Part shown: positions 2,453-38,856 of the stretch, piece by piece
Position numbering within the stretch: the stretch's first letter is position 1
How the letters are laid out: every line of letters begins with the position of its first letter
Virus record (IMG/VR): IMGVR_UViG_3300031240_000006
Location: 1-57,690 of that record
From: a virus
DNA: 57,690 nt
Strand: one strand, 5' to 3'
Program-made: the position numbers and the translations under genes
Notes under the pieces: model-generated
Seen by the model: only the letters and a program-made list of their open reading frames with translations
Told to the model about the DNA's origin: nothing
Database searches by the model: none

Positions 2453-2839
2453 ATGTTTACTGACGATATTACGTCTGAAATCCAAGATCTGTTCAACGAC
2501 TTCCAGGGCCAGTTCGAGGACGACCTCAAAGCCGAGCTCACGCTGGGCACCGCCACGGGCCCGAACGCCGGCTTCCGCGCCTTCAATCCCAACCCGCCGA
2601 AGACCCCCGAGCGGCTCGCGCAGATCAGGAAGAGCGTCGCCACGATCGCCAACCGCGACATCCTCGAGCGCCTCCAGGCAGGCGAGCGTCCGAAGAAGTG
2701 GGGCAAGCGCTGGGTCGCCGCCGCGAACATGCTCGGCATCGACGTCCCCGCCCCCACGGGCAAGAACACGCGCAAGAGCTGGGTCGCCGCGACCGCCAAC
2801 GCGCTCGTCACCTGCGGCGCCCCGGGAGGTGTTTCGTGA
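2453..2839 (+). CDS. Protein of unknown function (128 aa)
   Basis: The ATG at 2453 follows a GAGG ribosome-binding site. The protein has an acidic N terminus (DDITSEIQDLF) and a basic, Trp-containing C-terminal half (KKWGKRWVAAANMLGI), with no signal peptide and no Cys pairs beyond one residue near the end. It lies between the terminase/HNH pair and a metzincin, and its stop overlaps the metzincin GTG. I do not recognise the family. Confidence 0.75.
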   Translation: MFTDDITSEIQDLFNDFQGQFEDDLKAELTLGTATGPNAGFRAFNPNPPKTPERLAQIRKSVATIANRDILERLQAGERPKKWGKRWVAAANMLGIDVPAPTGKNTRKSWVAATANALVTCGAPGGVS

Positions 2840-3528
2840 TCCTCGAATACTGCCCCCAGTGCTGCCGGATGACCGAGACCCGCTCCGGCCACTGCCGCGA
2901 TTGCGGGCGCGCGCGACAAGTCTTCTCCCTCCCGAAGTGGCCCCGCCCGTGGGCGCAAGTCGGCCGGACGCTGAGCTACATCGTCGCGGGCGCGCTCGCG
3001 GGGGCGTTCTTCGGCCCGTGCATCGGTTGCGCGGCGCCAATCGAACTCGACCATGGGCGCGCTCAGCCTACCGAGTACGAGGTGCACATATCACCGTCGT
3101 TCAGCGTCTCGAGCACCTTGAACGCCACGATCGCCGTCAACGACTGGGAGGAAACGACGGGCGTCATCTTGACGACATCGTTCGACGACGAGACCTGTCC
3201 GCCCGTGAGCGCGTGCTTTCACATCGCCCCGCAGGACCAGCCGATGACGTCGACGGACTGCAAAAACTCAGAGCCGGGCATCGTCGGATGCACGTACGAT
3301 CATGGGCACGAGATAGCGGTGGCGTCATCGCTGGACGACGGGACGCAGCTCCACGTCATGCGGCACGAGATGGGTCACGCGCTCGGCCTGCACCACACCG
3401 TCGAGCTGGACTCGCTCATGTACTACTCGACCGCGGGCTCGCCGACGATCACGGGCATCGACGTGGCTCAGTACGACTGGCTCCGAGGCGGCCCCGCGGG
3501 CGGCTTCGAACTGGATACGGAGCACTGA
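2836..3528 (+). CDS. Metzincin-type zinc metalloprotease with N-terminal zinc ribbon and TM segment
   Basis: The zinc-binding signature HEMGHALGLHH (177-187) and the Met-turn LMYYS (194-198) place this 230-residue protein among the matrixin-like metzincins. A CPQCC...CRDCG zinc ribbon opens the protein and a hydrophobic segment (about 47-63) follows. The catalytic domain would therefore face the periplasm or cell surface if the segment is an anchor. GTG 2836 overlaps the upstream stop (GTGA), which favours it over the upstream in-frame ATG at 2698. A second metzincin is at 38862. Possible roles are cleaving a host envelope protein or a virion protein; neither can be told from sequence. Confidence 0.88.
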   Translation: MILEYCPQCCRMTETRSGHCRDCGRARQVFSLPKWPRPWAQVGRTLSYIVAGALAGAFFGPCIGCAAPIELDHGRAQPTEYEVHISPSFSVSSTLNATIAVNDWEETTGVILTTSFDDETCPPVSACFHIAPQDQPMTSTDCKNSEPGIVGCTYDHGHEIAVASSLDDGTQLHVMRHEMGHALGLHHTVELDSLMYYSTAGSPTITGIDVAQYDWLRGGPAGGFELDTEH

Positions 3529-3978: not shown

Positions 3979-4223
3979 ACCCCCGGCGGCGACGCATCCG
4001 GCGGCTCGCGCGGAAGGCCCGGAAGTTCCTCGAGAGGTTCCGCCAGGTGTCGAAGCGCCTGCGCAAGCTGAAGACGTACGACGCGAAACACGTCACGGTG
4101 GGGGTGAACGGGGTCGCATTCACGTTCGATAACGTGGAGTACGTCGACGCATATTCGTTGGGGCGCATATATACACCGAGAAAAAACTCGATGTCGGCGT
4201 ATTTCGGGCTTGACCAGGGCTAA
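3975..4223 (+). CDS. Small Arg/Lys-rich protein (82 aa)
   Basis: The ATG overlaps the upstream stop (ATGA). The first 35 residues are strongly basic (NPRRRRIRRLARKARKFLE), suggesting nucleic-acid binding, and the second half is neutral and beta-rich. The 3' part of the gene, 4150-4198, is a diverged copy of a sequence found in the non-coding region at 36805-36857. Function unknown. Confidence 0.65.
   Translation: MNPRRRRIRRLARKARKFLERFRQVSKRLRKLKTYDAKHVTVGVNGVAFTFDNVEYVDAYSLGRIYTPRKNSMSAYFGLDQG
4161..4198. repeat. Dispersed repeat, copy 1 (imperfect hairpin)
   Basis: This segment matches 36821-36856 with a 2-base insertion and one substitution. It holds the inverted repeat ACACCGAG / CTCGATGT around an A6 loop, with one mismatch in this copy. 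It lies within the coding sequence of the 82-aa protein. The other copy forms a perfect 8-bp stem. Confidence 0.7.
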
Positions 4224-5156: not shown

Positions 5157-7019
5157 CTACTTCGAGGTCGAAGGCGGACCCTTCGCATCCACCGCCTTCG
5201 ACTTGATCTCCAGCTCCTGCTTCTTCGCGTCCTGGTCCGCCTGGAACTTCTCGGCTCCGCTCGGTGCCAGTTGTGCCGTCGCCAGCTTCGCGCGTCGGAG
5301 GTCGCCCTGGATCTCGGTGTCGAGGTGCAGGTCCCCGCTCCTGAAGCGGCTCATCGCGACTTCCTCGGGGAGCAGCGTCCCGTTCGCGATGTACTTGTCG
5401 TCGGCCTGGGCCATGTTCCAGCGGATCGTGCTTTGCTCAAGTTCGCTCGGCGCATAGAGCTTGTGCCACGTGAACTCCAGGCCACCGTCGGGCAGCTTGC
5501 CTTTGCACGGGGAGTCCTTCGCGGCGCAGATGAGCGAGTAGAGCCGCTCGAGTTTCGGCTGGACCTCGTTCACCTGGTCGCCGGCGATCATGTCGTAGAA
5601 GCGCCGGAAGTCCGCGTCGCCCGTCGCATTGAGTCCGCTCGGCTCGCGGCCGAAGAGGATCGCGACCGGCATCTCGGCGGCGGCGGCCATGCGGAGCATC
5701 ATGTTCTCGAGGACGTCGTCCACTCCGGTCAGCGGCGTCGCGACCCGCTCGAAGGCTTCGTTCTCCGCGTCGAGCATGATCATGCGCGTCGTGCTTCGCT
5801 GCATGTCGACGAGCTGCATCCGGGTCTGAAGCGTCTTCTGGTCGTTAGAGATGAGCTGCGCCAGGCCGTTGATCTTCATCACCGCTTGCGACAGGTCGCT
5901 CATCAGGTTGGCGACGCTCTGGAAGCTCATATCGAACTGCCGCATCACGTCGTACGCCGATTGCAGCCGCGACAGGGTCCAGCCCGCGAGCCGCCGGCGC
6001 ATGAAGAGGTCCACGGGCTCGCCGTCGAACCGAATGACCCGCGACTCGTGGACCAGGCTGTTGTCCTGGTTTCCGAACGGGTTGATGATGTTGTAGACCT
6101 CGACCTCGCCGTACTTCGGCCCGATCGTTTCGTAATACGACTGCGCAACGATGAAGCGCCGGTCGATCCACGTCAGGTACTTGAACGAGCGGATGTTCTC
6201 CTCGTTGACCGGCGTCGACATGTCCGCCCCGTCGTCGAGGCCCATGATCAGGAGTCCACCGCCGTACAGGCCGCCGAAGATGCACGCCTCCAGGAAGCGC
6301 GCCCTAATTTGCAGGGGCTTCGCGTAAAGTTCGACCGCCTTCGCGAGGTCCGCCTTGCCCGCTTGGTCTCCGGGGTTCGGGTCGACGCTGCCGGGCTTCG
6401 GGGGGTCGGCGATGGCGGTCGCTGCGGGGCCTGCGGGGCCGCTCTCGCCCTCGTCACTCACCGGTGCGGCCAGGGTCGGTCCTGCGTCGTCCGTGCGCGG
6501 CTTGGGGGCGCCAGGGGGCGGCGTACCACCAGGGGGCGGCGCGGCGGCGGGGGCCTTGGCGGCGGCGTCCGCGAGGGCGGCCTTCGGGTCGTCGGGACCG
6601 GGGGCGCCCGGGAAGGCGAGTATCCACCCGCGCCGAAACATCTCTTTCGCCTTGGCGCCGACGATGCGCTTCGCCAGGTCGTTGCCGTTCCAGAGCGCGC
6701 TCAGCTCCGCGTCCGGCAGGCGGTGCGGCTCGCGGAACTCCCCGTGCGTGACCTTGTCGCGGCCCGTGCCGTGGCCCGTGAGGGGGTTGACCCAGCCGCC
6801 TTGGTAGTGACCGCCACCGTTGCCGCCGATCAGGCCGTTGAGGAGGGAGTCGTTGCGGACGCCGGCGAAATAGCTGTCGGGGATGGCGCCGAGTTCGCGG
6901 AGGGATTGCGTCGACGGCGGCGCGACCGAGGGGGCCCATTGGAAGTCGCCGGCGGGCGGCCCGGGGGGCAATTGCGGGGCGGGGGCGGCGGGCGATTTAC
7001 GAAACCAGGGGAGGCGCAC
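5157..7019 (-). CDS. Portal protein (DUF1073 / Phage_portal_3 family)
   Basis: This is the dodecameric ring at the capsid vertex through which DNA passes. The 620-residue protein carries the family hallmark GREPSGLNATGDADFRRFYD and the core segment LEACIFGGLYGGGLLIMGLD. A Pro/Ala/Gly-rich, disordered-looking stretch (about residues 135-225) is inserted between the N-terminal part and the core, which is unusual. Translation starts at GTG 7019; GGCTAAAAT lies exactly 5 bases upstream. It is alone on the minus strand between two plus-strand runs. Confidence 0.9.
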   Translation of the reverse strand: MRLPWFRKSPAAPAPQLPPGPPAGDFQWAPSVAPPSTQSLRELGAIPDSYFAGVRNDSLLNGLIGGNGGGHYQGGWVNPLTGHGTGRDKVTHGEFREPHRLPDAELSALWNGNDLAKRIVGAKAKEMFRRGWILAFPGAPGPDDPKAALADAAAKAPAAAPPPGGTPPPGAPKPRTDDAGPTLAAPVSDEGESGPAGPAATAIADPPKPGSVDPNPGDQAGKADLAKAVELYAKPLQIRARFLEACIFGGLYGGGLLIMGLDDGADMSTPVNEENIRSFKYLTWIDRRFIVAQSYYETIGPKYGEVEVYNIINPFGNQDNSLVHESRVIRFDGEPVDLFMRRRLAGWTLSRLQSAYDVMRQFDMSFQSVANLMSDLSQAVMKINGLAQLISNDQKTLQTRMQLVDMQRSTTRMIMLDAENEAFERVATPLTGVDDVLENMMLRMAAAAEMPVAILFGREPSGLNATGDADFRRFYDMIAGDQVNEVQPKLERLYSLICAAKDSPCKGKLPDGGLEFTWHKLYAPSELEQSTIRWNMAQADDKYIANGTLLPEEVAMSRFRSGDLHLDTEIQGDLRRAKLATAQLAPSGAEKFQADQDAKKQELEIKSKAVDAKGPPSTSK

Positions 7020-7024
7020 CTCCT

Positions 7025-7033
7025 ATTTTAGCC
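7025..7033 (-). promoter_or_regulatory. GGCTAAAAT start-proximal promoter element (portal)
   Basis: On the minus strand the motif is followed by 5 bases (AGGAG) and then the portal GTG. With the copy at 7043-7051 it forms an inverted pair between divergent genes. TAAAAT resembles a -10 hexamer; transcription starting 5-7 bases on would give a leaderless message. Confidence 0.6.
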
Positions 7034-7042: not shown

Positions 7043-7051
7043 GGCTAAAAT
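7043..7051 (+). promoter_or_regulatory. GGCTAAAAT start-proximal promoter element (HTH gene)
   Basis: The motif is followed by CCCTC and then ATG 7057. It faces away from the copy at 7025-7033 with 9 bases between them. There is no Shine-Dalgarno sequence before this ATG, consistent with a leaderless transcript. Confidence 0.6.
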
Positions 7052-8554: not shown

Positions 8555-8632
8555 ATGGAAGAGCAAATCTGGTGGGGCATCATCTTCTTCGGGTTGTTCG
8601 GCCTCCTCGTCGCGATCGGGACCGAGCGATGA
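8555..8632 (+). CDS. Single-pass membrane microprotein (25 aa)
   Basis: The 25 codons encode one hydrophobic helix, IWWGIIFFGLFGLLVAIG, with a charged tail. It starts 2 bases after the cupin stop and its TGA overlaps the ATG of the resolvase gene, which supports translation. It could be a small holin-like or accessory membrane peptide. Confidence 0.5.
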   Translation: MEEQIWWGIIFFGLFGLLVAIGTER

Positions 8633-9117
8633 CGCCCGCGCAGCACCTCGAGCACTGGGGCCGCCCCGTCTCCCTCCTCGCCATCGACCCAGGCAAAGCT
8701 ACGGGCTGGGCCCTGTTCATCGAGGCAGGCGGCTGGCACCTGTCCGCGTGCGGCGTCGCCAAGCCCGATGATCATGCGTGGACGCCCCTCGCCGCGAGCA
8801 AGATCGATCGGGTCGTCATCGAGAACCCCCAGATCTACCCGAACAGCCCCGCGCGGCCGAACGACATCCTCACCCTCGCGCGCGTGGTCGGTCGGTACGA
8901 AGAGCGCTTTCAGGACGCGGCGTCCGTCACGCTCGTCACCCCGCACCAGTGGAAGGGCAGCGTCAAAGGCGACGTAATGACCAAGCGCATCGAGGCCGCC
9001 CTCACCCCGCACGAGGCGACGATCCTCTCGATGCGCAAGTACACCCATGATACGCTCGACGCCATTGGCTTGGCCAAGTGGGCCCTGAAGCAACTGTCGA
9101 TTATGAGGGCGGCTTAG
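8629..9117 (+). CDS. RuvC-like Holliday junction resolvase
   Basis: The 162-residue protein shows the RNase H-fold signature of RuvC enzymes: LLAIDPGKATGWALF (D20), VVIENPQ (E65), TPHQWKGSVKG, and a final HDTLDAIGLAKWA (D141/D144). It should cut four-way junctions or branched DNA before packaging. It is the last gene of a plus-strand run, and its stop overlaps the stop of the convergent minus-strand gene by 4 bases, leaving no room for a terminator between them. Confidence 0.88.
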   Translation: MTPAQHLEHWGRPVSLLAIDPGKATGWALFIEAGGWHLSACGVAKPDDHAWTPLAASKIDRVVIENPQIYPNSPARPNDILTLARVVGRYEERFQDAASVTLVTPHQWKGSVKGDVMTKRIEAALTPHEATILSMRKYTHDTLDAIGLAKWALKQLSIMRAA

Positions 9118-10346
9118 ACGAGCGCTTGCGCCGGCGCCCCGACGAGCTGCCCGAGCCGCACGCCCACGCTGTTCAAAGCGAGGAGCTGCGACTGGCTCGT
9201 GTGCAGCCGCGGGCGCTGCGTCGCCGTCGTGCCGCCCGTGAGGCTACCGCTGCCCCAGTACCAGGTCACCGACCCGTCGGGCGAGTAAATCAACCGGGCG
9301 TTGTTCGCGCTCGCGGGGGCGACCGTGGCGTCGTTCGCGATGCCGACGATCAGGCCGTTGACGCTGGCGAGGTCCGTCGGCGCGAGTCCGCTCGTCCCGA
9401 GTGCCCCGAAGGCCGCGCCGGTGAGTGTCGCCGTGGCGGACCAGGTAATCCCGTCCGGCGAGGTGTAGAACGACAGGCCCGCCGTGTAGCTGAACGCCAC
9501 GACGAAAAGGCCGAGCGCGCTGTTGTACGTCAGGCCGACCGGCGTCTTGTTCGTGAAGTTGACGATGCCGCTCGTGAACGTCTGGCTCGTCCAGGTCGTG
9601 CCGTTGGTGCTCGTGTAGTACGTCGGGTTCGCGCCGACGCCGATCGTCATGGGGATGGCGACGGCGATGGTGCTCGACGCCTTCAGGAGCCACTCCGGGG
9701 CCGTGACGCCGCTCACGCCGCCGGCGACCACGCTCGGAGTCGCCTCGGGGGTCGCGTAGTAATCGAGGAAGCCCGTGCTGCCCGTGCCGCCGACCGCGAT
9801 GATCGGGACGCTGCCCAGGGTGGCGTGCTCGACGTGACGGCTCGTGCTGAGGTAGGTCGTGATGTTCGTCCAGGTCGCGCCCTGGTCGGCCGAGAACCAG
9901 TCTTTGAAGTTGGTCCCATCGTACGTGTACGCGTACCAGCGCGAGCCCGCCGGCGAGACGCCGAGCGCCACGATCGACGCGCCAGCGCCGCCGGGTCCCG
10001 AGAGGGCGCCGGAGATCCAGGTGTCGCCGCCGGTGTTGAACGCCAGAGCGGGGTTGGTCCCGCCGCCGAGCAGCCAGAGCCCGCGGAACTTGTCGTAGGC
10101 TGCCGACCGGACGGTCGTGAAGCCGCTGGGGGCCTGCTGGGGCTGGAGGTTGCTCGCCGCCGCAGCGAAGCCGCCGAGGATGCTGTCGCGTTGATTCAGG
10201 AGGTAATTGAGCTCTTCCGCCGTCGGCACCTGACCGGGCGTGAAGTAGTTGTAATTCGGATTGACCTTCAGGGGCTGGCCGCTCCAGGCGCTGCTACCGG
10301 CGGGGAAGTTCGTCGTGCTCGCCCAAGGGAAGTTTTGAATCGTCAT
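9114..10346 (-). CDS. Beta-propeller-like tail tip or fibre protein
   Basis: The 410-residue protein contains repeated Asp-box-like turns such as FNTGGDTWIS, SADQGATWTNI, TSTNGTTWTSQ and SPDGITWSA, typical of a sialidase/BNR-type beta-propeller. It is last in the tail operon, directly after the gp48-like baseplate gene, the usual place for a tail fibre. The likely role is receptor or glycan binding at the host surface. No catalytic residues of a sialidase were identified. Confidence 0.75.
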   Translation of the reverse strand: MTIQNFPWASTTNFPAGSSAWSGQPLKVNPNYNYFTPGQVPTAEELNYLLNQRDSILGGFAAAASNLQPQQAPSGFTTVRSAAYDKFRGLWLLGGGTNPALAFNTGGDTWISGALSGPGGAGASIVALGVSPAGSRWYAYTYDGTNFKDWFSADQGATWTNITTYLSTSRHVEHATLGSVPIIAVGGTGSTGFLDYYATPEATPSVVAGGVSGVTAPEWLLKASSTIAVAIPMTIGVGANPTYYTSTNGTTWTSQTFTSGIVNFTNKTPVGLTYNSALGLFVVAFSYTAGLSFYTSPDGITWSATATLTGAAFGALGTSGLAPTDLASVNGLIVGIANDATVAPASANNARLIYSPDGSVTWYWGSGSLTGGTTATQRPRLHTSQSQLLALNSVGVRLGQLVGAPAQALV

Positions 10347-10948
10347 GTGCTAGCCAAGCCTCCGAGCTGATCAAGTGCCGCGCCGCCGTAGGTGCTCGCG
10401 AAGCCCGCGCCCGTGACGCCGCCGTAGGACGAGCCCCAAATGATGTAAGGGCCCGTCGACGTCGAGTAGCGTATGTTCAACGCCGTACCGGCGCTGCGCG
10501 TCTGCGGGAGGTACGCCTGGAGCGCCGCGACGACCGACGCCGTGGTCCCGAGCGCGACGACTTCCGCTGCCGCCGGGGGCCACTCGAAGTATCCAGCGCC
10601 GGCGACGATCAGGGCGACGACCTGGACGATGTCCTCGGCGAGACCGTTCGAGCGGTTGACCCGGATTTGCAGCTTGATGACCGCGAGGTAGTCGGCGTCG
10701 CTGCGTCCGCCGCGCGGGGGAGCGCCGACGAGTGCGCCGAGCCGGTCGAGCACATCCCACGGGCCGCCGGCGAGGGGGTGGCTCGAGAGCTGGACCGCGT
10801 TGAGGACGGCGAAGACCTTGTTCTCGAGCGCCTGGACCGGGGTCACGAGCGCCTTCACCAGGCCCGACGTGACCGGGAGCTTGGCGTACCGGCTCGTGAG
10901 CAGAGCGGCCGCTTCGGCGACGTGGGCGGTGTCCTGGACCGGGAGCAT
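10343..10948 (-). CDS. Baseplate protein, gp48/DUF2612-like
   Basis: The segment WDVLDRLGALVGAPPRGGRS followed by DADYLAVIKLQIRVNRSNG matches the DUF2612 / Mu gp48-like baseplate family, in which about 200 residues is normal. It follows baseplate J as in Mu and related phages and probably links the wedge to the fibre. The ATG overlaps the end of the J gene. Confidence 0.82.
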   Translation of the reverse strand: MLPVQDTAHVAEAAALLTSRYAKLPVTSGLVKALVTPVQALENKVFAVLNAVQLSSHPLAGGPWDVLDRLGALVGAPPRGGRSDADYLAVIKLQIRVNRSNGLAEDIVQVVALIVAGAGYFEWPPAAAEVVALGTTASVVAALQAYLPQTRSAGTALNIRYSTSTGPYIIWGSSYGGVTGAGFASTYGGAALDQLGGLAST

Positions 10949-12165
10949 CAGACGCCATTGACCAAGATGTTCGCGGTAGAGCAGGTCGCAATCTGCAGGC
11001 CGCTGATGGGCAGGTTCGCCGTGTTCGTCGGGCTGGCCACGAAGTCAAAAGCGAACGTGACGACGTCGGTGATGAACGGCGTGTACGCGGGGTTCGACGG
11101 CGTCGCGTCGAGGGCGGAGATGGGCTCGAGGGGCGACGCGGAAAACTTGCGGGCGATGATGCTGACACCGAGGCCGAGGTTATTGATGTACTGCGCGATG
11201 GCCTGTTTTACCGCGGTCGTTTGCGGCGTGGTCAGCGAGCTCGGAGTCGTCGTGCAAGAGACGAAGACGGGCTTCTGCGTCGCGCGGTCGAAGTTCACGG
11301 TGCGGGCGATGCCCTGGCTGTCGGTCGCCGTCCCGGACAGCGCGCCGAACGACTGGATGCCGGAGGGCTTGTTGTCCCAAATCGCTTGGGCGATGTCGTT
11401 CAGGCTGTCGGTCGGGCTGGCGCCATCCCAGATCACGATGCGGAAAGCCTTGCCGGGGAGGCCGGTGCTGTCCGTCACGAGCGAGGTATTCTCGAAACCG
11501 AAGACGCTGATGATCCCCTCGCTGACCTTGTCGACCGCCGAGACGATCGAGTCCAGCGTGCCCGAGCCCTCCCCGGCGAGCTGTATGAGGCGCTTCTGCC
11601 GGAGGGTCGTGTCGGTGTCGGCGTCGACGCCCGAGGAGGCCGCCGTCGCGTTGTTGACGCCGAGCAGGCCCACCGCCGGGGTGTTGATCACCGTGATGGT
11701 GTTGGCGTTGGCCACGAAGGCGCCGGGGTTCGAAGCGCGGCACAACCCGGTGTAAAAGCCGCTCGTCGTGCTCGTCACCGAGTTGAGCAGCACCCAGGTG
11801 TTCGCGGGTTGATTTACGACGGCGAACACGGTCCCGGCGCTGACCGTCGTGCTCGCGTTCATGTTGAGCTGGACGGTCACCGTGCCGTACGTGGCGACCT
11901 GCGGCAGCGTCCCCGAGAGGGCGGCGGCGTTCGCGAGTAGCGCCCCTTCGGCCGCGTTCGGGTTAATGGCGTTGTAGGCGGTCTGGATCGTACCGTCCAA
12001 ACTTGCCAATTTGGCGGCAACAATCCCAATAATTTGGCCGAGCGGCTGATCAGGCGATAGGTCGAGCCCGGCGTCCACGTTCGCCAGGATCGCCGCATTT
12101 AGATCTTGAACGTATTCGTCCTCGGTCTCGGCACTATATCCCTGGGGCGTCAGACCTGCGACCAT
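10948..12165 (-). CDS. Baseplate J-like protein (Mu gp47 / T4 gp6 family)
   Basis: The 405-residue protein has the baseplate J layout: an N-terminal helical part (DLSPDQPLGQIIGIVAAKL), ANAAALSGTLPQVATYGTVT, then the central VDADTDTTLRQKRLIQLAGE and a C-terminal beta part. It forms the wedge ring of the contractile baseplate. Its first 16 bases overlap the end of an HNH gene that separates it from the gp46-like wedge gene. Confidence 0.92.
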   Translation of the reverse strand: MVAGLTPQGYSAETEDEYVQDLNAAILANVDAGLDLSPDQPLGQIIGIVAAKLASLDGTIQTAYNAINPNAAEGALLANAAALSGTLPQVATYGTVTVQLNMNASTTVSAGTVFAVVNQPANTWVLLNSVTSTTSGFYTGLCRASNPGAFVANANTITVINTPAVGLLGVNNATAASSGVDADTDTTLRQKRLIQLAGEGSGTLDSIVSAVDKVSEGIISVFGFENTSLVTDSTGLPGKAFRIVIWDGASPTDSLNDIAQAIWDNKPSGIQSFGALSGTATDSQGIARTVNFDRATQKPVFVSCTTTPSSLTTPQTTAVKQAIAQYINNLGLGVSIIARKFSASPLEPISALDATPSNPAYTPFITDVVTFAFDFVASPTNTANLPISGLQIATCSTANILVNGV

Positions 12166-12752
12166 TTAGCCTCCAGTGCGGTAACAAGGGTTTTTAGCTC
12201 CTCGATCGTTGCATCACTTTTCAGGACGTTCGCTCGACGCGAGATGATCCAGACATTGCCCGGCACATAACCTTTGGTGTTATCGAGCCGATCGAGCGAC
12301 GGCGATGTCGGGCGCGCGACCTTTTGACCTGTCTCGAAAGGCGTGCCGAAAACGGGGCAGCATTCAGGCATCTGCAGGTCTTCGATTGTCAGAGAGAACT
12401 GGAGTCCGTCACGTAGCGCCCTTCGTTTCGCCGCCTGCACCATCTGCCGCCGGGGGTCCGCAGCGTGCCGGGACTTGTTCTGCTCCAAAATCTTCTCGCG
12501 CAGTCTCGGGTACGTAGCGCGCTTGTAGGCCGCTTGATACTCTCGGTTTGCCGCGAGATCCTTATGGTAACGGACGCGGGCCGTAGCTCGTTTCTTTGCG
12601 CGCTGATCGGGGCGCTTCGCCGCCTCAGCGCGCCGGGCCTTCACCTCAGGGCGGTTCTGGTACCCGCGCATGTAGGCTTGCAGATACGCGCGTCGGGCCT
12701 CGGGGTCGGCATAGGGCATCACCATATGCGCGCTACCAATTTGCGGGCTCAT
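12150..12752 (-). CDS. HNH-family endonuclease, PSLDRLDN type (free-standing homing type)
   Basis: The 200-residue protein has a long basic helical N terminus (KKRATARVRYHKDLAANREY) and a C-terminal nuclease segment SPSLDRLDNTKGYVPGNVWI followed by SRRANVLKSD. This subclass differs from the endonuclease VII-type proteins elsewhere but resembles the one at 31672. It sits between two baseplate genes, overlapping both by a few bases, which is typical of a selfish insertion. Confidence 0.82.
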   Translation of the reverse strand: MSPQIGSAHMVMPYADPEARRAYLQAYMRGYQNRPEVKARRAEAAKRPDQRAKKRATARVRYHKDLAANREYQAAYKRATYPRLREKILEQNKSRHAADPRRQMVQAAKRRALRDGLQFSLTIEDLQMPECCPVFGTPFETGQKVARPTSPSLDRLDNTKGYVPGNVWIISRRANVLKSDATIEELKTLVTALEAKWSQV

Positions 12753-13138
12753 TGGTCACCCGGCGAGGTAATGAGGAAGGGCTCACCCGGCCCGCCGACC
12801 AGGACCGCGCCGTCGTTGGTCGTGAGGGTGAAGGAGGACGCGAGGGTACGAGCGCGGGGGTTGTAGTCGAGCGCGGAATCTGTAATCGCGGCGACGCCCG
12901 GGGCCGACATGATGACCTGCTGGAACAGGTTGCCGATGAGGGACAGGTTGGGATTGCTCACGAAGACGTATTGGAAATACGGGACGCCCTGGCGCGTGTC
13001 GCGAAACCACTCACCCTTGAAAAGCGTGAATAGGTTCGAGAGCTTCCAGGCGGTGCACTGCGCGACGGACTTTTCGACGCGCAGGTTACCGGTCGAAAAG
13101 TCCAAATCGCCGTTGGGGAGCTGAGCGAAGGCGGACAT
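12749..13138 (-). CDS. Baseplate wedge protein, Mu gp46 / GPW_gp25-like
   Basis: The 129-residue protein contains WFRDTRQGVPYFQYVF and LFQQVIMSAPGVAAI, the pattern of gp46-like wedge proteins that sit next to baseplate J. It is the first baseplate gene after the integration cassette. The start ATG at 13138 is preceded by GGAGGA directly before it and by GGCTAAAAT 10 bases upstream, so this part of the operon may have its own promoter. Confidence 0.82.
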   Translation of the reverse strand: MSAFAQLPNGDLDFSTGNLRVEKSVAQCTAWKLSNLFTLFKGEWFRDTRQGVPYFQYVFVSNPNLSLIGNLFQQVIMSAPGVAAITDSALDYNPRARTLASSFTLTTNDGAVLVGGPGEPFLITSPGDQ

Positions 13139-13148
13139 TCCTCCGCTT

Positions 13149-13157
13149 ATTTTAGCC
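13149..13157 (-). promoter_or_regulatory. GGCTAAAAT promoter element (wedge gene)
   Basis: On the minus strand the motif is followed by 10 bases and then the ATG of the gp46-like gene. The gap includes GGAGGA, so this message may carry a short leader. It would allow distal baseplate expression independent of the upstream tail genes. Confidence 0.55.
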
Positions 13158-13191
13158 TCGACGACCCGCCGATTTAGGTCACCCTTGAACG

Positions 13192-13713
13192 ATGCGACTC
13201 ATCCTTGCCGCCGCCCTGCTCACGACCTCCTGCGCCTCGGCGATGTCGCCTGATCAGGCGCCGCCCGAAATGTCACCGGACGCCGACGTCCCCGCGATGT
13301 CCCCGGACGCCGACACGACGCCGACACTCCCCGACGCCGCACCCACCGTCCCGGACCTGCCCGACGCCGCCCCTGACGCCGGCCAGGACGCGCCCGTCCC
13401 CGACGCCGCACCCGAGGCCGCCCCCTCGCCGCCGGACGCAGCCCCGAGCCACGCCAACGACCCCATCGTGTACCCGGACGCGGGCGACGCGGCGCCGCCG
13501 GCGGTATGCCAGTTCTACCCGCGCGACCCCTACCTCCCTGGCTGCAACCCCGGCTCGGTCGTGAGCTGCTACCCCCTGCCGGCGGACGCGGGGACGGTCG
13601 GGATACAAATCACCGGAAGGTTCCCCGACGCCGGCCCGACGGGTATGGGGGTGACGGAGATGATGACCTGCAACCTCGACGTGCGCTCGACGCTGCTCTG
13701 CTGCTTTTTCTGA
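13192..13713 (+). CDS. Putative secreted lipoprotein with Pro-Asp-Ala repeats (moron candidate)
   Basis: A hydrophobic leader (LILAAALLTTSCAS) ends in a lipobox-like site with Cys at residue 14. A long low-complexity region rich in PDA units follows, then a Cys-containing C-terminal domain (about 105-173, six Cys). Such PDA linkers are common in myxobacterial secreted proteins. It is the only plus-strand gene inside the tail cluster and lies beside attP, the usual place for a lysogenic conversion gene. The function of the C-terminal domain is unknown. Confidence 0.75.
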   Translation: MRLILAAALLTTSCASAMSPDQAPPEMSPDADVPAMSPDADTTPTLPDAAPTVPDLPDAAPDAGQDAPVPDAAPEAAPSPPDAAPSHANDPIVYPDAGDAAPPAVCQFYPRDPYLPGCNPGSVVSCYPLPADAGTVGIQITGRFPDAGPTGMGVTEMMTCNLDVRSTLLCCFF

Positions 13714-13767
13714 CCGCCGGCTGACTTCCGTCTGAGTGCCGCAACCGACGCCGCCAACCGCACGAAA

Positions 13768-13784
13768 GTAAAATAGTATTTTAC
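13768..13784. repeat. 17-bp palindrome beside the att core
   Basis: GTAAAATAGTATTTTAC is a perfect inverted repeat with a central G, 8 bases before the tRNA-derived sequence. It could bind the excisionase, integrase or a regulator. It stands out as AT-rich against a GC-rich background. Confidence 0.6.
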
Positions 13785-13840
13785 ATGCGCGTGGGGACTG
13801 AAAATCCCCGTGTCGGCGGTTCGATTCCGCCCCTGCGCAC
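13785..13840. other. attP: attP: 3' half of tRNA-Phe(GAA)
   Basis: Bases 13793-13839 fold as the 3' half of a tRNA: anticodon stem GGGGA (13793-13797), loop CTGAAAA with anticodon GAA (13800-13802), stem TCCCC, variable GTGTC, T arm GGCGG-TTCGATT-CCGCC, acceptor strand CCTGCGC and discriminator A. There is no 5' half and no CCA. Phages that integrate into tRNA genes carry this 3' part so the host gene is rebuilt. An integrase gene lies 80 bases away. The host tRNA-Phe should start with GCGCAGG. Confidence 0.88.
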
Positions 13841-13922
13841 TGATTTCAAAGGGTTAGCGTTTGCACTGCTTGCAGTACGTGCGCTGTTTCCAGGGCTCCT
13901 GCCTGACTTTGGGCTGACTCGA

Positions 13923-14972
13923 TCACCGCTGGCTGTCGGGGGAACTCTCTTCCGGCCCCTCGCTCATCGACCGAGCCAGCGCCGCCCCGATCTCCTGCGC
14001 GTCGAGCTTGCCGTAGACCTCGTCCAACATCTTGGTGCTCGAGTGCCCCATGAACGCCGCGACGACCCCGCGAGGCGCCCCCGCACTCAGCAGCCAGTGG
14101 GCCACCGACCGGCGCAGATCATTCGGCGAGATGGGCTTCAGCCCGAGGGTCTTGCACGCGCGGTGCAGAGCATGCCGGAGCGAGCCCGTGTCGACGGCGA
14201 CCGCTGCCTCCGGGGCGACACTCTGAAAAGCGTGCCGCGCAAACGCCGCCGTGACGGACGTCAGCGGGACCTCGCGCGCCGCCGCCTTCGTCTTGGTCTC
14301 GCGCACGACAATCGTCCCCGACCCGCCCCGCAAGTCCTCGCCGCGCGCCCGCCACACCGCCGAGTCCCGCGCCGTCGTTGCGCAGACGAAGGCGACGTAC
14401 TTCCCCGCGTGCGCCGGCAGGACCCCGATGAGCGACCACGCCTCGGCGATCGTCACGCGGCGCGTCCGCGGCTTGTACCCGGTCGCGTACCCGACGGGCA
14501 TCACCTGCGAGACCTCCTTGTCGAACTCCCCCCTGCGCCGCGCCACCTTCAAGGCCATACGGAGCGCGGTCAGCTCCTTGGCCACGGTGTAACGGGCAGC
14601 GCCCTCGCCCCGGCGCACACGTATGTACTCATCGACGAGCGGCGCCGTGACTTGTGCAAGCGGCAGGCCCTTTCCTAGGACCCGCATGAGGTGCCGAAGT
14701 TTTTTCGTGTAGAAGAGGCGCGTCGCGGGGGAGCGGCCTTTTAGCTCGAGGTAATCGATCAGGTTGCGGCAGGCGTCGCCGACGAGGGTCGAGTCCGCGG
14801 CGCGATGGGTCGGGTCAGCAAGTCGTCGCTCGAGTTCGCGGGCGACGGCGTGCGCGCGCTTCTCGTCGGTTTCTTTCGTCGAGCGGCGGACGCGCTTGCC
14901 CTCGCGATCGACGAGGTGGACGTACCAGAAAGGAGAGTTTTCGGGACGGAAGAGCTGGTAGGGCGTTCGCAT
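13923..14972 (-). CDS. int: Tyrosine integrase
   Basis: The 349-residue protein is a tyrosine recombinase. Its N-terminal SAM-like domain covers about 60-150. The catalytic domain shows R202 (TTARDSAVWR), Lys in ETKTKAAAREVPL, R287 in SPNDLRRSVAHW, H310 in MGHSSTKM and the nucleophile Y320 (EVYGK). The usual box II His is Asn here (N284), which some active members tolerate. It should recombine attP (13785-13840) with a host tRNA-Phe gene. It shares the strand of the tail operon and overlaps the xis-like frame. Confidence 0.93.
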   Translation of the reverse strand: MRTPYQLFRPENSPFWYVHLVDREGKRVRRSTKETDEKRAHAVARELERRLADPTHRAADSTLVGDACRNLIDYLELKGRSPATRLFYTKKLRHLMRVLGKGLPLAQVTAPLVDEYIRVRRGEGAARYTVAKELTALRMALKVARRRGEFDKEVSQVMPVGYATGYKPRTRRVTIAEAWSLIGVLPAHAGKYVAFVCATTARDSAVWRARGEDLRGGSGTIVVRETKTKAAAREVPLTSVTAAFARHAFQSVAPEAAVAVDTGSLRHALHRACKTLGLKPISPNDLRRSVAHWLLSAGAPRGVVAAFMGHSSTKMLDEVYGKLDAQEIGAALARSMSEGPEESSPDSQR

Positions 14973-15118
14973 CCAGCCAAATAGGATTGAAACACGCCGT
15001 CGTCAATCCGTAGAAGCTTCCCGATACGGAAATGGGGCAGGCGACGCACCAGGTCATAGGCCGCGCTGAGCGAACACTTGAGGCATTCTTGCACTTCGCG
15101 CGGCGTGAGGAGGCCCAT
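14759..15118 (-). CDS. xis: Excisionase-like HTH protein
   Basis: The first 50 residues form a MerR/excisionase-type winged helix: LLTPREVQECLKCSLSAAYD, then FRIGKLLRIDDGVFQSYL. Such proteins bend att DNA and favour excision. The open frame runs on for about 70 Ser/Arg-rich residues that overlap the integrase gene by 214 bases and look like out-of-frame coding. The true protein may therefore be shorter in function, or a frameshift may join it to the integrase. The start is ATG 15118. Confidence 0.65.
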   Translation of the reverse strand: MGLLTPREVQECLKCSLSAAYDLVRRLPHFRIGKLLRIDDGVFQSYLAGCERPTSSSVPKTLLSGTSTSSIARASASAARRKKPTRSARTPSPANSSDDLLTRPIAPRTRPSSATPAAT

Positions 15119-15157
15119 ACATATTGACGGTTACAAAATAGCCCTTGGTTGAGTCGG

Positions 15158-15217
15158 GGGCGCGGCGGGGGCGGCCGGTTCTTACTTCCCCAAGTCCCCT
15201 GTCGCCACGCCGCGCCC
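15158..15217. terminator. Long GC stem between spike gene and xis
   Basis: GGGCGCGGCG (15158-15167) pairs perfectly with CGCCGCGCCC (15208-15217) across a 40-base loop, in the 100-base gap between the spike gene and xis. It could attenuate tail transcription before the integration genes. There is no T-run, so a rho-independent terminator is uncertain. Confidence 0.35.
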
Positions 15218-15218
15218 G

Positions 15219-15902
15219 CTATTTCGCCTTGACCAAGGTGGCGCCGGTCGTCGCGGCCAGGGGCCAGTTCGCGAGCTTCCACGTGCTCAGCGCGGTGATG
15301 AAGGCCGCGAAACCGGTCTCCGGCCCGGCCGGCGTGTAGGTCGCGGTCACGACGTTGATGAAGCTGTCGATGAGGGTGCAGAGCGCCACCGCCGCCGTCG
15401 CCCCGACGCCGAGCTCAATGTCGCTCGCGGAGATGCGGATCTGCGCCTGTCCGCTGTCCTGACCGATGATCACCTCGTCGGTCCCGGGGTCGTGCAGCGC
15501 CTTCTTGTCCGGCGCGCAGCAAGGTATTGCAAAAGGGCTGTCGAGCGTGTGCTTGCCCGCGAAACCCGGCGGCTGCGGCGTCCCGTCCCCCGCGCGCCAG
15601 CGGTCGGTCGAGAGGTCGCTGAAGACGAGGAGCACGCTGTCCCCGACGGCGACCGGCACCCAGACCATGAAACCGCCGCCGCGCGCGAACCCGAGGGGCA
15701 CGTTCGTGATCGACGGTGCGGGCTCTTCGTACCCGTTGCCGAACTCGTCGAAGACCACGTTCGAAACCGCGACCTGGACGTCGACCGTTTGCGCCGATGC
15801 GTTGACCGCGGTGACGGTCGCGGGGATGCACTTGCGCATCTCGTTCAAGAGAGCGTCGCGGTGGGCTCCAAGGATTTCTGCGTGGCTTCTGGGAAGGGGC
15901 AT
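15219..15902 (-). CDS. Baseplate spike protein (Mu gp45 / gp138-like)
   Basis: The 227-residue protein has an OB-fold-like N-terminal part (ATVTAVNASAQTVDVQVAVS, then VPLGFARGGGFMVWVPV and VGDSVLLVFSDLSTDRW) characteristic of the Mu gp45 / gp138 N-terminal spike family. It forms the central membrane-piercing spike. The C terminus is short and has no obvious HxH iron-binding tip. It is the last gene before the integration cassette. Confidence 0.85.
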   Translation of the reverse strand: MPLPRSHAEILGAHRDALLNEMRKCIPATVTAVNASAQTVDVQVAVSNVVFDEFGNGYEEPAPSITNVPLGFARGGGFMVWVPVAVGDSVLLVFSDLSTDRWRAGDGTPQPPGFAGKHTLDSPFAIPCCAPDKKALHDPGTDEVIIGQDSGQAQIRISASDIELGVGATAAVALCTLIDSFINVVTATYTPAGPETGFAAFITALSTWKLANWPLAATTGATLVKAK

Positions 15903-15905
15903 TGA

Positions 15906-16883
15906 TCAGCTGTAGGGTAGGGCGGAAAACTCGATATCCCAGGCATCGCCGTAGGTGCTGCCGGTGTAGCGACACTTCTGCACGCGAAAGCCGCTCCCCT
16001 CGCCGACGAAGAGCGAGTCGATGACGACCAAGACGCCCGGAGCGAGGCCGGGGATCAGGCGCGTCTTGACGCTCACGACGCCCTGGCTGTCGACGCTCGG
16101 GGAGTCGAGCATGCCGGTGTTCTCCGAAATCTGAATCGCCTGCGTCGTCGACAGCACGCCCCCGACGTTGAGGAGCTGGAGCTGTCCGTCCTGGATGCTC
16201 CACTCGAGGCCCGCGCTCCGGCAGATGTCCGTCATGCGCTGGGCACCGTTGCCGAGGAGCGCGCTCCCGTTCACGCTCTGGATGCCCGTGCCGTACTTCG
16301 CTACCGCCGCTTCGAGGTTGCCGACGCCGACGCCGAGGACTTTAGACAGGGCGCGGAAAGCATCGACGAGTGATACTTTCGGTCCGAGCGTGCGGTAGAT
16401 GTTCCCGCCCCCGTGGTCGTTCGGCTGGATCTTCTTCGTCTTACGTACCCCGGTCGGCCGCGCGACGCTGTCGGTGGACTCGATGTGCGTGACGTACGTC
16501 GCCGCCCCTTCACCGCTCGTCTCCGTCCAGGCCGCGCGTGCCTCGGCGAAGTAGAGCTGGCTGATGCCGCCCTTGTACCCGGCCTCGAGCTTGACCGTGA
16601 TGTCGTGGTCGCCCGAGAGCGCCTGCCGGGTGTCCTCGGAGAAGTTGTAGACCTTGAGCTGCAAAGTGTTGGGCTCGGTCGGCTTCAAGCTCTTCTCGAC
16701 GACGAAGTCGCAGTCGAGGCCGCTGACGTCCAGGCCGTGCGAGTTCTGGTCATTGAAGGCCGCGCTCGCGAGCAGCTTCGGGGAGTTGGGCACCCCGAGG
16801 ACGAGGTTGAGCTGACGCCCGAAAAGCTGGGTCCCTTGCAGCGTCGCGAGGGCGTTCAGCGCGGAGGGGCCGAGCGCGGCCAT
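15906..16883 (-). CDS. Baseplate hub protein (gp44/gp27-like)
   Basis: The 325-residue protein has the hub features LKVYNFSEDTRQAL, VKLEAGYKGGISQLYFAEA and LSKVLGVGVGNL, and ends with LIPGLAPGVLVVIDS and EGSGFRVQKCRYTGSTYGDA, as in gpD/gp44/XkdQ-like tail hub proteins. It connects the tail tube to the spike encoded just downstream. The length suits the family. Confidence 0.82.
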   Translation of the reverse strand: MAALGPSALNALATLQGTQLFGRQLNLVLGVPNSPKLLASAAFNDQNSHGLDVSGLDCDFVVEKSLKPTEPNTLQLKVYNFSEDTRQALSGDHDITVKLEAGYKGGISQLYFAEARAAWTETSGEGAATYVTHIESTDSVARPTGVRKTKKIQPNDHGGGNIYRTLGPKVSLVDAFRALSKVLGVGVGNLEAAVAKYGTGIQSVNGSALLGNGAQRMTDICRSAGLEWSIQDGQLQLLNVGGVLSTTQAIQISENTGMLDSPSVDSQGVVSVKTRLIPGLAPGVLVVIDSLFVGEGSGFRVQKCRYTGSTYGDAWDIEFSALPYS

Positions 16884-20894: not shown

Positions 20895-22208
20895 TTACGA
20901 GGACAGGACGCCGTTGAGCGTCGCTGAATTGATTGCGCCCGCGAGCGTGGCGCTGAAGTTCATGCCCGGGTAATTTCGGGCGGCCTTGTTGACCGAGCTC
21001 ACCGTCGCGACCTTGGGGATCGTCACCGTGAAGGCCGGCACCGCGGCGAGGAAGCCGGAGTCGGTAAACGACTGGAGGACGCCGCTGATCACCGAGCGGT
21101 ACATGTCCGCGCCGGCGTCGGTGAAGGGGACCTTGAGGGTGTTCGCCTGGAGCGCGAGCACGCCGACTTGCAGCGCGTTCGTGACGGCGTCGACGCCGCG
21201 GATGATGTCTGCCCACTCACCGTCCGGCGTCTTGCCGAATTGCGTGAGGTTGAGCCCGAAAAGCGTCGTGTAGACCGAGCCGTTCTTGCCTTCGACGGCG
21301 TGAACTTGCGCGTCCGTGAGAGCGTCGACGGGCACGCCCGCGAGGGTCTTGAACGCCCAGTTTTCGCTGCCCGGGTCGGTCGGGTAGAGGCGCCCCATCC
21401 AGCCGGCAGCGGCGTAGGAGAGGAGCTGGCCCTGGCTGAAGAGGCCGAAGCTGCGCTTGTGGGCGAGACCTTTTTCGGTCGAGAAGATGTCCGTCGTCGC
21501 GGAGGTCGCGCAGGCGGTGTCCGTCGAGTTCCAGCAGAATTGCTTCGTGGCGTTGCCCTCGACCCAGGCCGCCGCAGCGGTGATCTCGGCGGGGGACTGG
21601 CTGTCGAGCAGGAGGCCGTACCAGGCGCTGTCGGCCGCGAGGATGGCGGCGAGGTCCGTGGCGATGCCCGGGTCCGCCGTCGTGTCCGCGAAAGTCGTAT
21701 GCACGTAGTCCGGCTGGACGTCGAGCAGCGAGCCCGCGACCATGGTCAGAGTCAGGATTGCGCCGGAGTGCGTCGCCGTGAGGCCGGTGATGGCGAGCGC
21801 CGTCACTGCCGTGTTGATCGTCGCAACGTCCGTCGCCGGCACGCCCGTGGAGGCAACCGAAACCGCGCGCCAGGTCCCGCCCGGAGTGCGGAGGTTGAAC
21901 TTGTAGGTATCGAGCGCCGAGGCCGACGTGCAGGTCATCGTCAGCGTCTGCGTCATCGCGAGCGCGCGCCGGCCGATTTTGACGGCCGTAGGGGAGGGCT
22001 GCTGGGCGAAGACGTTCTGCGCCATCAGGTAGAGCGGGTCCGTCACCACGAAGCCGTCCGCGACCATGCCTGCGAGGGTCGTGTATTCGCGGCTGCGGTC
22101 CGTGTAGTGCGTGTGGTAACCCACGAGCATCGGCTCGCCGAAGCCAGCCCGCGTGGGGCCCGCCCCCGAAACGGAAATCGATACGGTCAGGACGTCGGCA
22201 ATCGGCAT
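20895..22208 (-). CDS. Tail sheath protein (DUF3383-like)
   Basis: The 437-residue protein has the DUF3383 sheath N terminus (VSISVSGAGPTRAGFGEPML), a variable Ala/Thr-rich middle domain, and a C-terminal part DGEWADIIRGVDAVTNALQV and FTVTIPKVATVSSVNKAAR, which forms the conserved contractile core. Its presence makes this a contractile-tailed phage. GGCTAAAAT lies 9 bases upstream of the ATG and probably starts the long minus-strand tail transcript. Confidence 0.9.
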   Translation of the reverse strand: MPIADVLTVSISVSGAGPTRAGFGEPMLVGYHTHYTDRSREYTTLAGMVADGFVVTDPLYLMAQNVFAQQPSPTAVKIGRRALAMTQTLTMTCTSASALDTYKFNLRTPGGTWRAVSVASTGVPATDVATINTAVTALAITGLTATHSGAILTLTMVAGSLLDVQPDYVHTTFADTTADPGIATDLAAILAADSAWYGLLLDSQSPAEITAAAAWVEGNATKQFCWNSTDTACATSATTDIFSTEKGLAHKRSFGLFSQGQLLSYAAAGWMGRLYPTDPGSENWAFKTLAGVPVDALTDAQVHAVEGKNGSVYTTLFGLNLTQFGKTPDGEWADIIRGVDAVTNALQVGVLALQANTLKVPFTDAGADMYRSVISGVLQSFTDSGFLAAVPAFTVTIPKVATVSSVNKAARNYPGMNFSATLAGAINSATLNGVLSS

Positions 22209-22217: not shown

Positions 22218-22226
22218 ATTTTAGCC
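22218..22226 (-). promoter_or_regulatory. GGCTAAAAT promoter element (tail operon)
   Basis: On the minus strand the motif lies 9 bases before the sheath ATG and heads the operon running down to 9114. It is divergent from the copy at 22251-22259. Confidence 0.6.
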
Positions 22227-22250: not shown

Positions 22251-22259
22251 GGCTAAAAT
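22251..22259 (+). promoter_or_regulatory. GGCTAAAAT start-proximal promoter element (capsid operon)
   Basis: The motif is followed by TAGCC and then GTG 22265, the protease start. It heads the plus-strand structural and lysis run. Together with 22218-22226 it forms an inverted pair. Confidence 0.6.
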
Positions 22260-22264: not shown

Positions 22265-23386
22265 GTGCTTCGCTTCGACGAATTTCGCCTCGACGCGACG
22301 GGTATTCGCGACCTGCCGGACGGCTCAATACGAGTCGTTGGCCAGCTCACGCGCGCGGGCATCTTCACCTACTTCAACCCCGACGGGTCGCAGCGCCGTG
22401 AATACCGCCCCGCAGAAGAGGTGTTCAGTCCCTCCGCCCTCGAGAGCTTCGCCGGCGCGACGGTGACGGTGAACCACCCCCGTAGCGCAACCCGCCTCGT
22501 TAGCGCGAAGTCGTGGAAGGCCGAGGCAGTCGGGCACATGGGCGACAACGTCCGGCAAGATGGGGAGCTCGCGGTCGGGGACCTCTATATCCGCGACGCC
22601 GACACCGTCGCCGGGGTGAAGGCCGGCAAGTTCCGCAACATCTCCCTCGGCTACCAGGTCGCCTACGACCCGACGCCGGGAACGACCCCCACGGGCGAGC
22701 GTTACGACGGCGTGCAGCGGCGGATCAAGGGCAATCACGTGGCCCTGCTCCCCGCCGGAGTGGCCCCGCGCGGCGGCGAAAACTGCGTGCTCCGGCTCGA
22801 CGCCGCGGGCGAGGAAATTGACCAGTCAATCGACACGCGCACGGACGTTGATCAGGTTGGGCTAAAATCTGGTCAGATGACCCCTGAACAGATTGCCGCC
22901 CTTCAAGCGGAACTCGCCAAGGCGCGCACGGACGCGGCGGAACTTCCCGCCCTCCGCGACGCCCTCAAGACGGCCCTCGCGCAGCCCGCAGCCCTCCCCC
23001 AGGAGCGAATTGATGCCCTGGTTGCCGAGCGCGCCGAAGTCCTCGCCCTCGCGGCGAAGCACGGCGTCTCGCCGAAGTCGGCTGACGGCAAGTCGCTGTC
23101 GGACCTCGCGATCAAGCGCGCGGTCGTCGCGAAGGTGACCCCCGCGGTCGCGTCGCGAGTCGACAGCTTCGGCGCCGAGACGGTGGACGCGCTTCTCGCC
23201 GTCGCCGCCGCCGCGCCGCACCCCAGCCTCGCCGCTGTCGTCGCCGTCGCTGCCGCCCCCGCGGTGGTCGCGACGAAGACGGACGACGCTCGCGCCGACG
23301 CAATCGACGTGAACGCAATCCCGACAATCGCCGAGCTCCAAGCAAAGGCGCACGCAGAACTCCGCAACGCCTGGAAGGGCAACTGA
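22265..23386 (+). CDS. Prohead protease/scaffold fusion (DUF2213-like)
   Basis: The N-terminal 190 residues match DUF2213 prohead proteases: EVFSPSALESFAGATVTVNH, MGDNVRQDGELAVGDLYI, KAGKFRNISLGYQV. The C-terminal third (from about 205) is Ala/Glu/Lys-rich and helical like a scaffold, ending in an Ala/Pro/Val-rich stretch. GTG 22265 is preferred over the longer frame because it lies 5 bases after GGCTAAAAT. An in-frame ATG at 22877 after another GGCTAAAAT could make the scaffold alone. Confidence 0.85.
   Translation: MLRFDEFRLDATGIRDLPDGSIRVVGQLTRAGIFTYFNPDGSQRREYRPAEEVFSPSALESFAGATVTVNHPRSATRLVSAKSWKAEAVGHMGDNVRQDGELAVGDLYIRDADTVAGVKAGKFRNISLGYQVAYDPTPGTTPTGERYDGVQRRIKGNHVALLPAGVAPRGGENCVLRLDAAGEEIDQSIDTRTDVDQVGLKSGQMTPEQIAALQAELAKARTDAAELPALRDALKTALAQPAALPQERIDALVAERAEVLALAAKHGVSPKSADGKSLSDLAIKRAVVAKVTPAVASRVDSFGAETVDALLAVAAAAPHPSLAAVVAVAAAPAVVATKTDDARADAIDVNAIPTIAELQAKAHAELRNAWKGN
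22860..22868 (+). promoter_or_regulatory. Internal GGCTAAAAT element before the scaffold domain
   Basis: The motif lies inside the protease gene, 8 bases before an in-frame ATG (22877). The position suggests a separate transcript for the scaffold part. Confidence 0.5.
22877..23386 (+). CDS. Nested scaffold protein (in-frame internal start)
   Basis: Starting at ATG 22877, this frame gives the last 169 residues of the protease/scaffold: MTPEQIAALQAELAKAR and further helical, Ala-rich sequence. Nested scaffolds made from protease genes are known in lambda (Nu3 within C). The evidence is the ATG with a GGCTAAAAT just upstream and the domain boundary at this point. Confidence 0.45.
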   Translation: MTPEQIAALQAELAKARTDAAELPALRDALKTALAQPAALPQERIDALVAERAEVLALAAKHGVSPKSADGKSLSDLAIKRAVVAKVTPAVASRVDSFGAETVDALLAVAAAAPHPSLAAVVAVAAAPAVVATKTDDARADAIDVNAIPTIAELQAKAHAELRNAWKGN

Positions 23387-25810: not shown

Positions 25811-26320
25811 ATGCCCTCTATAGGTATGGGTACCGCGAACCCCGTCCGCGCTCAGAACCAGAAGTATTACGCGTCCCTCAGCCCGGAGGCGCGTGAGGCG
25901 TTGCTCGCGAAAACTCGCGAATACAAGCGCAAAAGCCGGGCTGCTATGTCGCCTGAAGATCGTGAGCTCGCACGCGCTGAGCAAAGGGCCCGCGACGCGG
26001 CACGACAGGGTCGACCCCGCACAAATATCACGCCGTCACGCGAGCAGCGACGGGCTTACAAGCTGTCCCGCAAATACAAGATGACGCAAGAGCAATACGA
26101 CGTGTTGCTCGCCACGCAGGGCGGCGTCTGCGCCATCTGCGGGGAGCCTGAGACGGTAAAACAACGGGGCGTCACGCAACCTCTGGCGGTCGACCACGAC
26201 CACGCCACGGAGAAGAACCGGGGGCTGTGCTGCTCGCGGTGCAATTGCGCGATCGGTCTCGTGCGTGAGAGCCCGTCAATTCTGCACGCCATCCTTGCCT
26301 ACTTGGAGCGACACCGATGA
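25811..26320 (+). CDS. HNH endonuclease, endonuclease VII-like (free-standing homing type)
   Basis: The 169-residue protein has an N-terminal basic region and the endonuclease VII-type nuclease: YKMTQEQYDVLLATQGGVCA, ICGEPE, VDHDHATEKNRGLCC and RCNCAIGLV. The stop overlaps the next gene by 4 bases. A second in-frame ATG at 25826, preceded by TATAGGT, may be the true start. Confidence 0.87.
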   Translation: MPSIGMGTANPVRAQNQKYYASLSPEAREALLAKTREYKRKSRAAMSPEDRELARAEQRARDAARQGRPRTNITPSREQRRAYKLSRKYKMTQEQYDVLLATQGGVCAICGEPETVKQRGVTQPLAVDHDHATEKNRGLCCSRCNCAIGLVRESPSILHAILAYLERHR

Positions 26321-29501: not shown

Positions 29502-29504
29502 AAT
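29496..29504 (+). promoter_or_regulatory. GGCTAAAAT start-proximal promoter element (HNH 29510)
   Basis: The motif contains the TAA stop of the repeat protein and is followed by AGCCG and GTG 29510. The HNH gene therefore seems to carry the same start signal as core phage genes. Confidence 0.58.
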
Positions 29505-33389: not shown

Positions 33390-33398
33390 GGCTAAAAT
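33390..33398 (+). promoter_or_regulatory. GGCTAAAAT start-proximal promoter element (lysis region)
   Basis: The motif is followed by CATGG and GTG 33404. It would start transcription of the holin-like and lysis genes independently of the capsid operon. Confidence 0.58.
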
Positions 33399-36799: not shown

Positions 36800-36820
36800 T
36801 GCGCACCGCAATATCGGTGG

Positions 36821-36857
36821 GGGCGCATATACACCGAGAAAAAACTCGGTGTCGGCG
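36821..36857. repeat. Dispersed repeat, copy 2 with perfect hairpin
   Basis: This is the second copy of the element at 4161-4198. Stem ACACCGAG (36831-36838) and CTCGGTGT (36845-36852) pair perfectly around an A6 loop. The upstream bases GGGCGCATAT are also shared. It lies in a non-coding region here and in a gene at the other locus. Confidence 0.75.
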
Positions 36858-38847: not shown

Positions 38848-38856
38848 GGCTAAAAT
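38848..38856 (+). promoter_or_regulatory. GGCTAAAAT start-proximal promoter element (metzincin 38862)
   Basis: The motif is followed by GGGGT and GTG 38862. There is no separate Shine-Dalgarno sequence, fitting a leaderless transcript. Confidence 0.58.

Follow-up and report, generated by a model that had tools for sequence, protein, structure and literature searches.

In the stretch of DNA analysed here, a viral contig 57,690 bases long (the window), an integration cassette lies between the genes for the central spike and the baseplate wedge of a contractile tail. The spike, or tail-tip, gene (15219-15902, minus strand) matches Pfam PF18352 (E 9e-15), and the spike family profile of the clade has a match among solved structures, the phage tail tip gp86 in the PDB (E 1.6e-9). 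The wedge gene (12749-13138, minus strand) encodes a gp25-like sheath initiator (phrog_120, E 7.5e-15), and its family profile matches the gp25-like sheath initiators phi92 gp139 and Pam3 gp21 in the PDB. In the direction of the tail genes, an HTH_17 open reading frame (ORF), a tyrosine integrase gene, the 3' half of a tRNA-Phe gene and a plus-strand lipoprotein-like ORF are found between the two. The coordinates and gene identities of the initial annotation were confirmed. In the window, 2,080 bp separate spike from wedge, as against 13-163 nt in most relatives; direct adjacency, proposed earlier as the usual state, is what most relatives have.

The spike is the last virion gene of a block that we call late unit A, which starts with the tail sheath gene (20895-22208; phrog_205, E 6e-87) and holds the baseplate hub gene at 15906-16883 (phrog_196, E 7.6e-42). 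The wedge is the first gene of late unit B. It is followed by a gene for an EndoVII/HNH-like endonuclease (12150-12752; phrog_3322, E 8e-35), a baseplate J-like wedge protein (10948-12165; phrog_6, E 1.9e-50, and PF04865), a gp48-like baseplate protein (10343-10948; weak matches to phrog_6277 and phrog_1160) and, as the last gene of the unit, a putative tail fibre (9114-10346), which has no family match and is assigned by position and homologues only. The endonuclease gene had not been part of the initial annotation. The tail genes, from the sheath (22208) down to the putative fibre (9114), are on the minus strand. The genome, of a temperate, contractile-tailed phage (myovirus), has a GC content of 65%. 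The first and last 240 bases of the contig form a direct repeat, in which one mismatch was seen, and thus the record represents a complete circular map of 57,450 bp. The terminase gene is at 403-1917 (plus strand) and the portal gene at 5157-7019 (minus strand), the head protease and capsid genes run on the plus strand from about 22.2 kb, and genes for a helicase and a DNA polymerase are within 42-53 kb.

The integrase gene (13923-14972, minus strand) matches phrog_1 (E 1.9e-37) and PF00589 (E 8.3e-13). A scan with this single sequence found no relatives; a scan with a two-sequence alignment found one match, in a second phage, L033 (IMGVR_UViG_3300049456_000119, 47,449 bp). The window integrase is 67% identical to the L033/G001 homologue over 337 residues, the PF00589 match is above the cut-off in both phages, and the reading frame is intact in both. 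As read from the alignment of the two, R202, K227, R287, H310 and Y320 are conserved, and the box II position is Asn284 (in the string NDLRR) in both phages, not His. His is the usual box II residue of tyrosine recombinases, whose canonical set is R-K-H-R-H-Y. Upstream of the integrase gene, the excisionase-like ORF (14759-15118, minus strand) matches HTH_17 with an E value of 5.8e-5, just under the Pfam cut-off, and has a homologue at the equivalent position in L033. Its helix-turn-helix lies within the first 40 codons or so, and its 3' part overlaps the integrase gene in another frame. In both phages this frame stays open for about 210 nt into the integrase gene (14759-14972 in the window), which may be a real overlap or chance. 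On the other side of the integrase gene, the lipoprotein-like ORF (13192-13713, plus strand), a candidate cargo gene (moron) on the strand opposite to the tail genes, has a signal peptide and a Cys and gave no family match in phrog and Pfam profile searches.

The putative attP core (13794-13840, plus strand) corresponds to the 3' half of tRNA-Phe(GAA). It extends from the anticodon arm to the discriminator base, plus one C, and 46 of 48 bases of the fragment match the tRNA-Phe gene of Azospirillum thermophilum at positions 27-74 of its 76. The core thus has the form expected of a tRNA-targeting site, matching a tRNA 3' end and adjoining the integrase gene. The order in L033 is spike, small genes, excisionase-like ORF, integrase, tRNA-Phe 3' half in the matching relative orientation, and wedge; the EndoVII/HNH gene between wedge and J is absent there. 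When the integrase-wedge intervals of the two phages were compared, only a 47-bp tRNA block could be aligned, with one mismatch, and the flanks could not; the single difference, in the T-stem, keeps a G-U pair. Since the gene order is the same in L033 and only the tRNA block is common, we regard 13794-13840 as a credible attP, and the earlier placing of an attP made of the tRNA-Phe 3' half next to the integrase gene, between spike and wedge, is upheld by the second phage. Both the att core and the PF00589 match occurred in only two of the 16 clade records, the window and L033, many of the other records being fragments. In a collection of 2.9 million viral contigs, a relaxed pattern of the core retrieved L033 only; the pattern must be relaxed because the T-stem difference hid L033 from the first scan. 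Near the attP, a search for arm-type integrase sites gave only short, unconvincing repeats.

One might suppose that the tRNA piece is only a passive leftover while the integrase uses another site, or that the cassette is decayed or a hitch-hiking element. The replacement of the box II His by Asn could be taken in that sense, as could the lack of any lysogen in the genome collection scans, where the exact tRNA-Phe core had no match and an alignment of the tube protein found no relative, so that these scans gave no prophage, attL/attR or host; such absence is not proof. However, the ends of the block and its position relative to the integrase gene are equal in L033, in which the integrase is only 67% identical and the flanks are unrelated, and the integrase reading frame is intact in both phages. 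We therefore consider a remnant or a decayed cassette very unlikely. Joining of the cassette to the tail genes by an assembly artefact or chimera is less probable still: these are metagenome assemblies, which is a general reason for caution and not direct evidence, but the map is circular with an end repeat, and this explanation was rejected since L033, an independent contig, carries the equivalent junction order.

The spike-wedge junction was compared across the clade. The gap is 13-23 nt in L002, L004, L056, L064, L066 and L067, 139-163 nt in L052, L069 and L072-L074, 257 nt in L057 and 350 nt in L053. Longer gaps hold small genes in L063 (1,168 nt), small genes with an opposite-strand matrixin-like lipoprotein gene in L003 (1,717 nt), and the integration cassette in L033 (2,374 nt). 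In L005, cargo genes (morons) follow the spike for at least 2.3 kb, and the contig ends before the wedge. In L035, in which these gene identities were read by eye, the wedge-J-gp48-fibre block has been relocated: it is on the opposite strand, behind the capsid genes, and the spike is followed by head-completion-like genes. A small protein, of a family assembled by eye, recurs at the junction in L003, L005, L063, L033 and L057. Judged from gene order in these records, the spike/wedge boundary is a clade-wide hot spot for cargo, used by integration cassettes, morons and a module rearrangement. A tree of concatenated tail proteins grouped the window with L002 and L029 (support 0.995), which are without the insert, and L033 with L026, L030 and L063 (support 0.70). 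The two cassette-bearing phages are not sisters in this tree, which lends no support to vertical inheritance of the cassette; repeated gain, exchange, or an early gain followed by loss would each account for its distribution.

A matrixin-like metalloprotease gene with a Pfam match is also present in the window, at 2698-3528. Similar lipoprotein-like ORFs, judged by eye, are at 8590-9090 (minus strand) of L003 and at 1136-1636 of L035. The matrixin-like gene may be cargo that moves between sites.

The window contains 10 exact copies of the motif GGCTAAAAT, where 0.1 would be expected, and most of them closely precede the first gene of an operon. Minus-strand copies lie upstream of the sheath (22218-22226, unit A), 10 nt before the wedge start (13149-13157, unit B) and before the portal gene (7025-7033). 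Plus-strand genes are preceded by copies at 7043-7051, 22251-22259 and 22860-22868, and the other sites are 29496-29504, 33390-33398 and 38848-38856 (plus strand) and 44537-44545 (minus strand). The copy before the wedge had been noticed earlier. Several start codons are only 5-14 nt from the motif; thus, the transcripts may be leaderless.

In relatives, CTAAACT or CTAAAAT is found at equivalent genes, so that the clade variants can be written CTAAA[AC]T. We counted this form within 35 nt of the start codon in distinct upstream regions of 26 clade sequences; as some of these are close kin from the same sample, the counts do not represent independent events. The form was present before the wedge in 13 of 17 such regions, with a one-base variant in the remaining four, and before the sheath in 8 of 14, the tail chaperone in 5 of 17 and the tape measure protein (TMP) in 2 of 17. 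It was not found before the spike (0/19), hub (0/12), J (0/15), gp48 (0/13), fibre (0/12) or tube (0/15) genes. The motif thus fronts the first genes of late units and is missing inside them, as expected of a late promoter with a -10 box only; no second conserved box or -35 partner was seen upstream of it, and no sigma factor or phage RNA polymerase that might read it was recognised among the proteins scanned. From its position and conservation we infer a -10-like late promoter, which is the simplest reading of the motif.

The wedge motif is present even where the spike ends 13 nt before the wedge (L064 and L066). Its occurrence throughout the clade, even at such a gap, indicates that the wedge heads a late unit of its own and that the boundary between the two late units predates the insertion. 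The initial annotation had regarded the tail genes as one operon split by integration, with the distal baseplate genes placed at the opposite prophage end from the sheath-to-spike genes. That placement is predicted by the position of the attP and the order in L033; the single split operon is not supported, as the wedge heads its own unit. It had also been proposed that a full tail transcript needs excision, and the clade-conserved, promoter-like motif of the wedge speaks against this: with such an element before unit B, excision would be unnecessary for the transcription of either unit. In an excision-gated scheme, the tail genes would form one operon in the excised circle, cut by integration, and the distal baseplate genes would not be co-transcribed until excision. 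The predicted prophage geometry, with the two blocks at opposite ends, is what such gating would use. However, the promoter-like motif stands at the wedge across the clade, before any insertion, a plus-strand gene lies between the integrase and the wedge in the window, and in L035 unit B is at a different place and on the opposite strand. We consider such gating very unlikely.

The arrangement that we favour, and consider probable as a whole, is that the cassette lies at the boundary of two late units, that the integrase joins attP to the host tRNA-Phe gene, and that both units are whole in the prophage. The cassette (excisionase-like gene, integrase gene and attP consisting of the tRNA-Phe 3' half) would have been inserted at the late-unit boundary, just upstream of the putative promoter of unit B, with attP placed between the integrase gene and unit B. 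Unit A would run from sheath to spike with the excisionase-like and integrase genes co-directional behind it, and unit B (wedge, HNH, J, gp48 and fibre) would be transcribed from the GGCTAAAAT promoter-like element at its head. By recombination between attP and the tRNA-Phe gene of the host, the prophage would be linearised at the spike/wedge boundary. One end would carry the restored tRNA followed by the integrase and excisionase-like genes and the genes from spike to sheath, and the opposite end, about 55 kb away, the lipoprotein, wedge, HNH, J, gp48 and fibre genes. As the cassette order is repeated in a second phage, prophage ends at this junction are a straightforward prediction. Both late units would be whole in the prophage, induction would not need a tail transcript to be rejoined, and the units would be neighbours again after excision. 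Since the split falls on an existing boundary of two separately promoted blocks, it probably has no cost to the phage; the split is real in DNA order and probably not in transcription.

In both phages the excisionase-like and integrase genes follow the spike and are co-directional with unit A. They might therefore belong to this unit, with read-through from the sheath promoter producing late integrase and excisionase and no separate early expression. Between spike and excisionase-like ORF, the terminator search found a strong GC stem that has no U-tract and no excess over shuffled sequences, and a scan for sigma-70-like promoters between spike and integrase found none; with neither recognisable there, late read-through into the integrase gene is possible. 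However, integration normally needs early integrase, and the promoter scan is weak evidence because the host may use another type of promoter. On balance, late expression of this kind seems unlikely to us. A fuller version, which we consider decidedly unlikely, would put the integration system under late control, with integrase and excisionase expressed from the last part of the late transcript that covers sheath to spike; in the prophage, this transcript would continue across attL and enter the restored host tRNA-Phe gene in antisense. If true, this would couple the production of virions to excision and to expression of the host tRNA.

Like the tRNA-targeting tyrosine-integrase phages of the P22 and P2-like types, the window has an integrase gene flanked by an excisionase-like gene and by the 3' half of a tRNA, through which the host tRNA would be restored. 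In those phages the cassette adjoins the border of early and late genes or comes after the last of the late genes; here, in contrast, it is embedded in the virion genes, with the spike on one side and the sheath initiator on the other. The spike and gp25-like sheath initiator are homologous to baseplate genes of the phi92/Pam3 type, in which the sheath initiator follows the spike, whereas 2.1 kb of integration cassette and cargo separate them here. Moron sites between late genes are similar in that accessory genes with their own orientation stand at a transcription-unit boundary, as in L003, L005 and L063, but the cargo in the window is the integration system, which fixes the point at which the prophage is cut. 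As in T4 late promoters (TATAAATA, without a -35 box), a single -10-like box is found just before late genes; unlike them, the sequence is another one, no sigma factor was recognised, and the box is often 5-14 nt from the start codon of a possibly leaderless transcript. In the literature we found no matching case of an attP inside a tail gene cluster, which is weak evidence of novelty. This temperate layout, in which the prophage ends would fall among the tail genes of the virion, occurs in two phages that are not close sisters. The layout may be tolerated because the cut falls at a conserved late-unit boundary that is an insertion point for the whole clade. The boundary and the motif together predict, in a directly testable way, the places at which such phages take up cargo, and the motif is a candidate late promoter in this clade of uncultured myoviruses.

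Several other features of these genomes were observed. The window has five EndoVII/HNH-like genes (1901-2386, 12150-12752, 25811-26320, 35438-35845 and 50737-51264), which are likely free-standing homing endonuclease genes. The palindrome CTAATTAG occurs six times in this 65% GC genome (at 2405, 4220, 37745, 38658, 39428 and 49384); three of the sites fall within 37.7-39.4 kb, and the palindromes may be repressor operators. A 39-nt direct repeat (4161-4199 and 36819-36857) is 90% identical between copies 32.7 kb apart. A repeat of 63-69 nt recurs about 14 times, in diverged copies, at 28278-29237 inside a fibre-like ORF (28182-29501, plus strand), and L005 has a long GGTCGTGGTCGC-type repeat array at 9200-10153, just after the cargo genes behind its spike.
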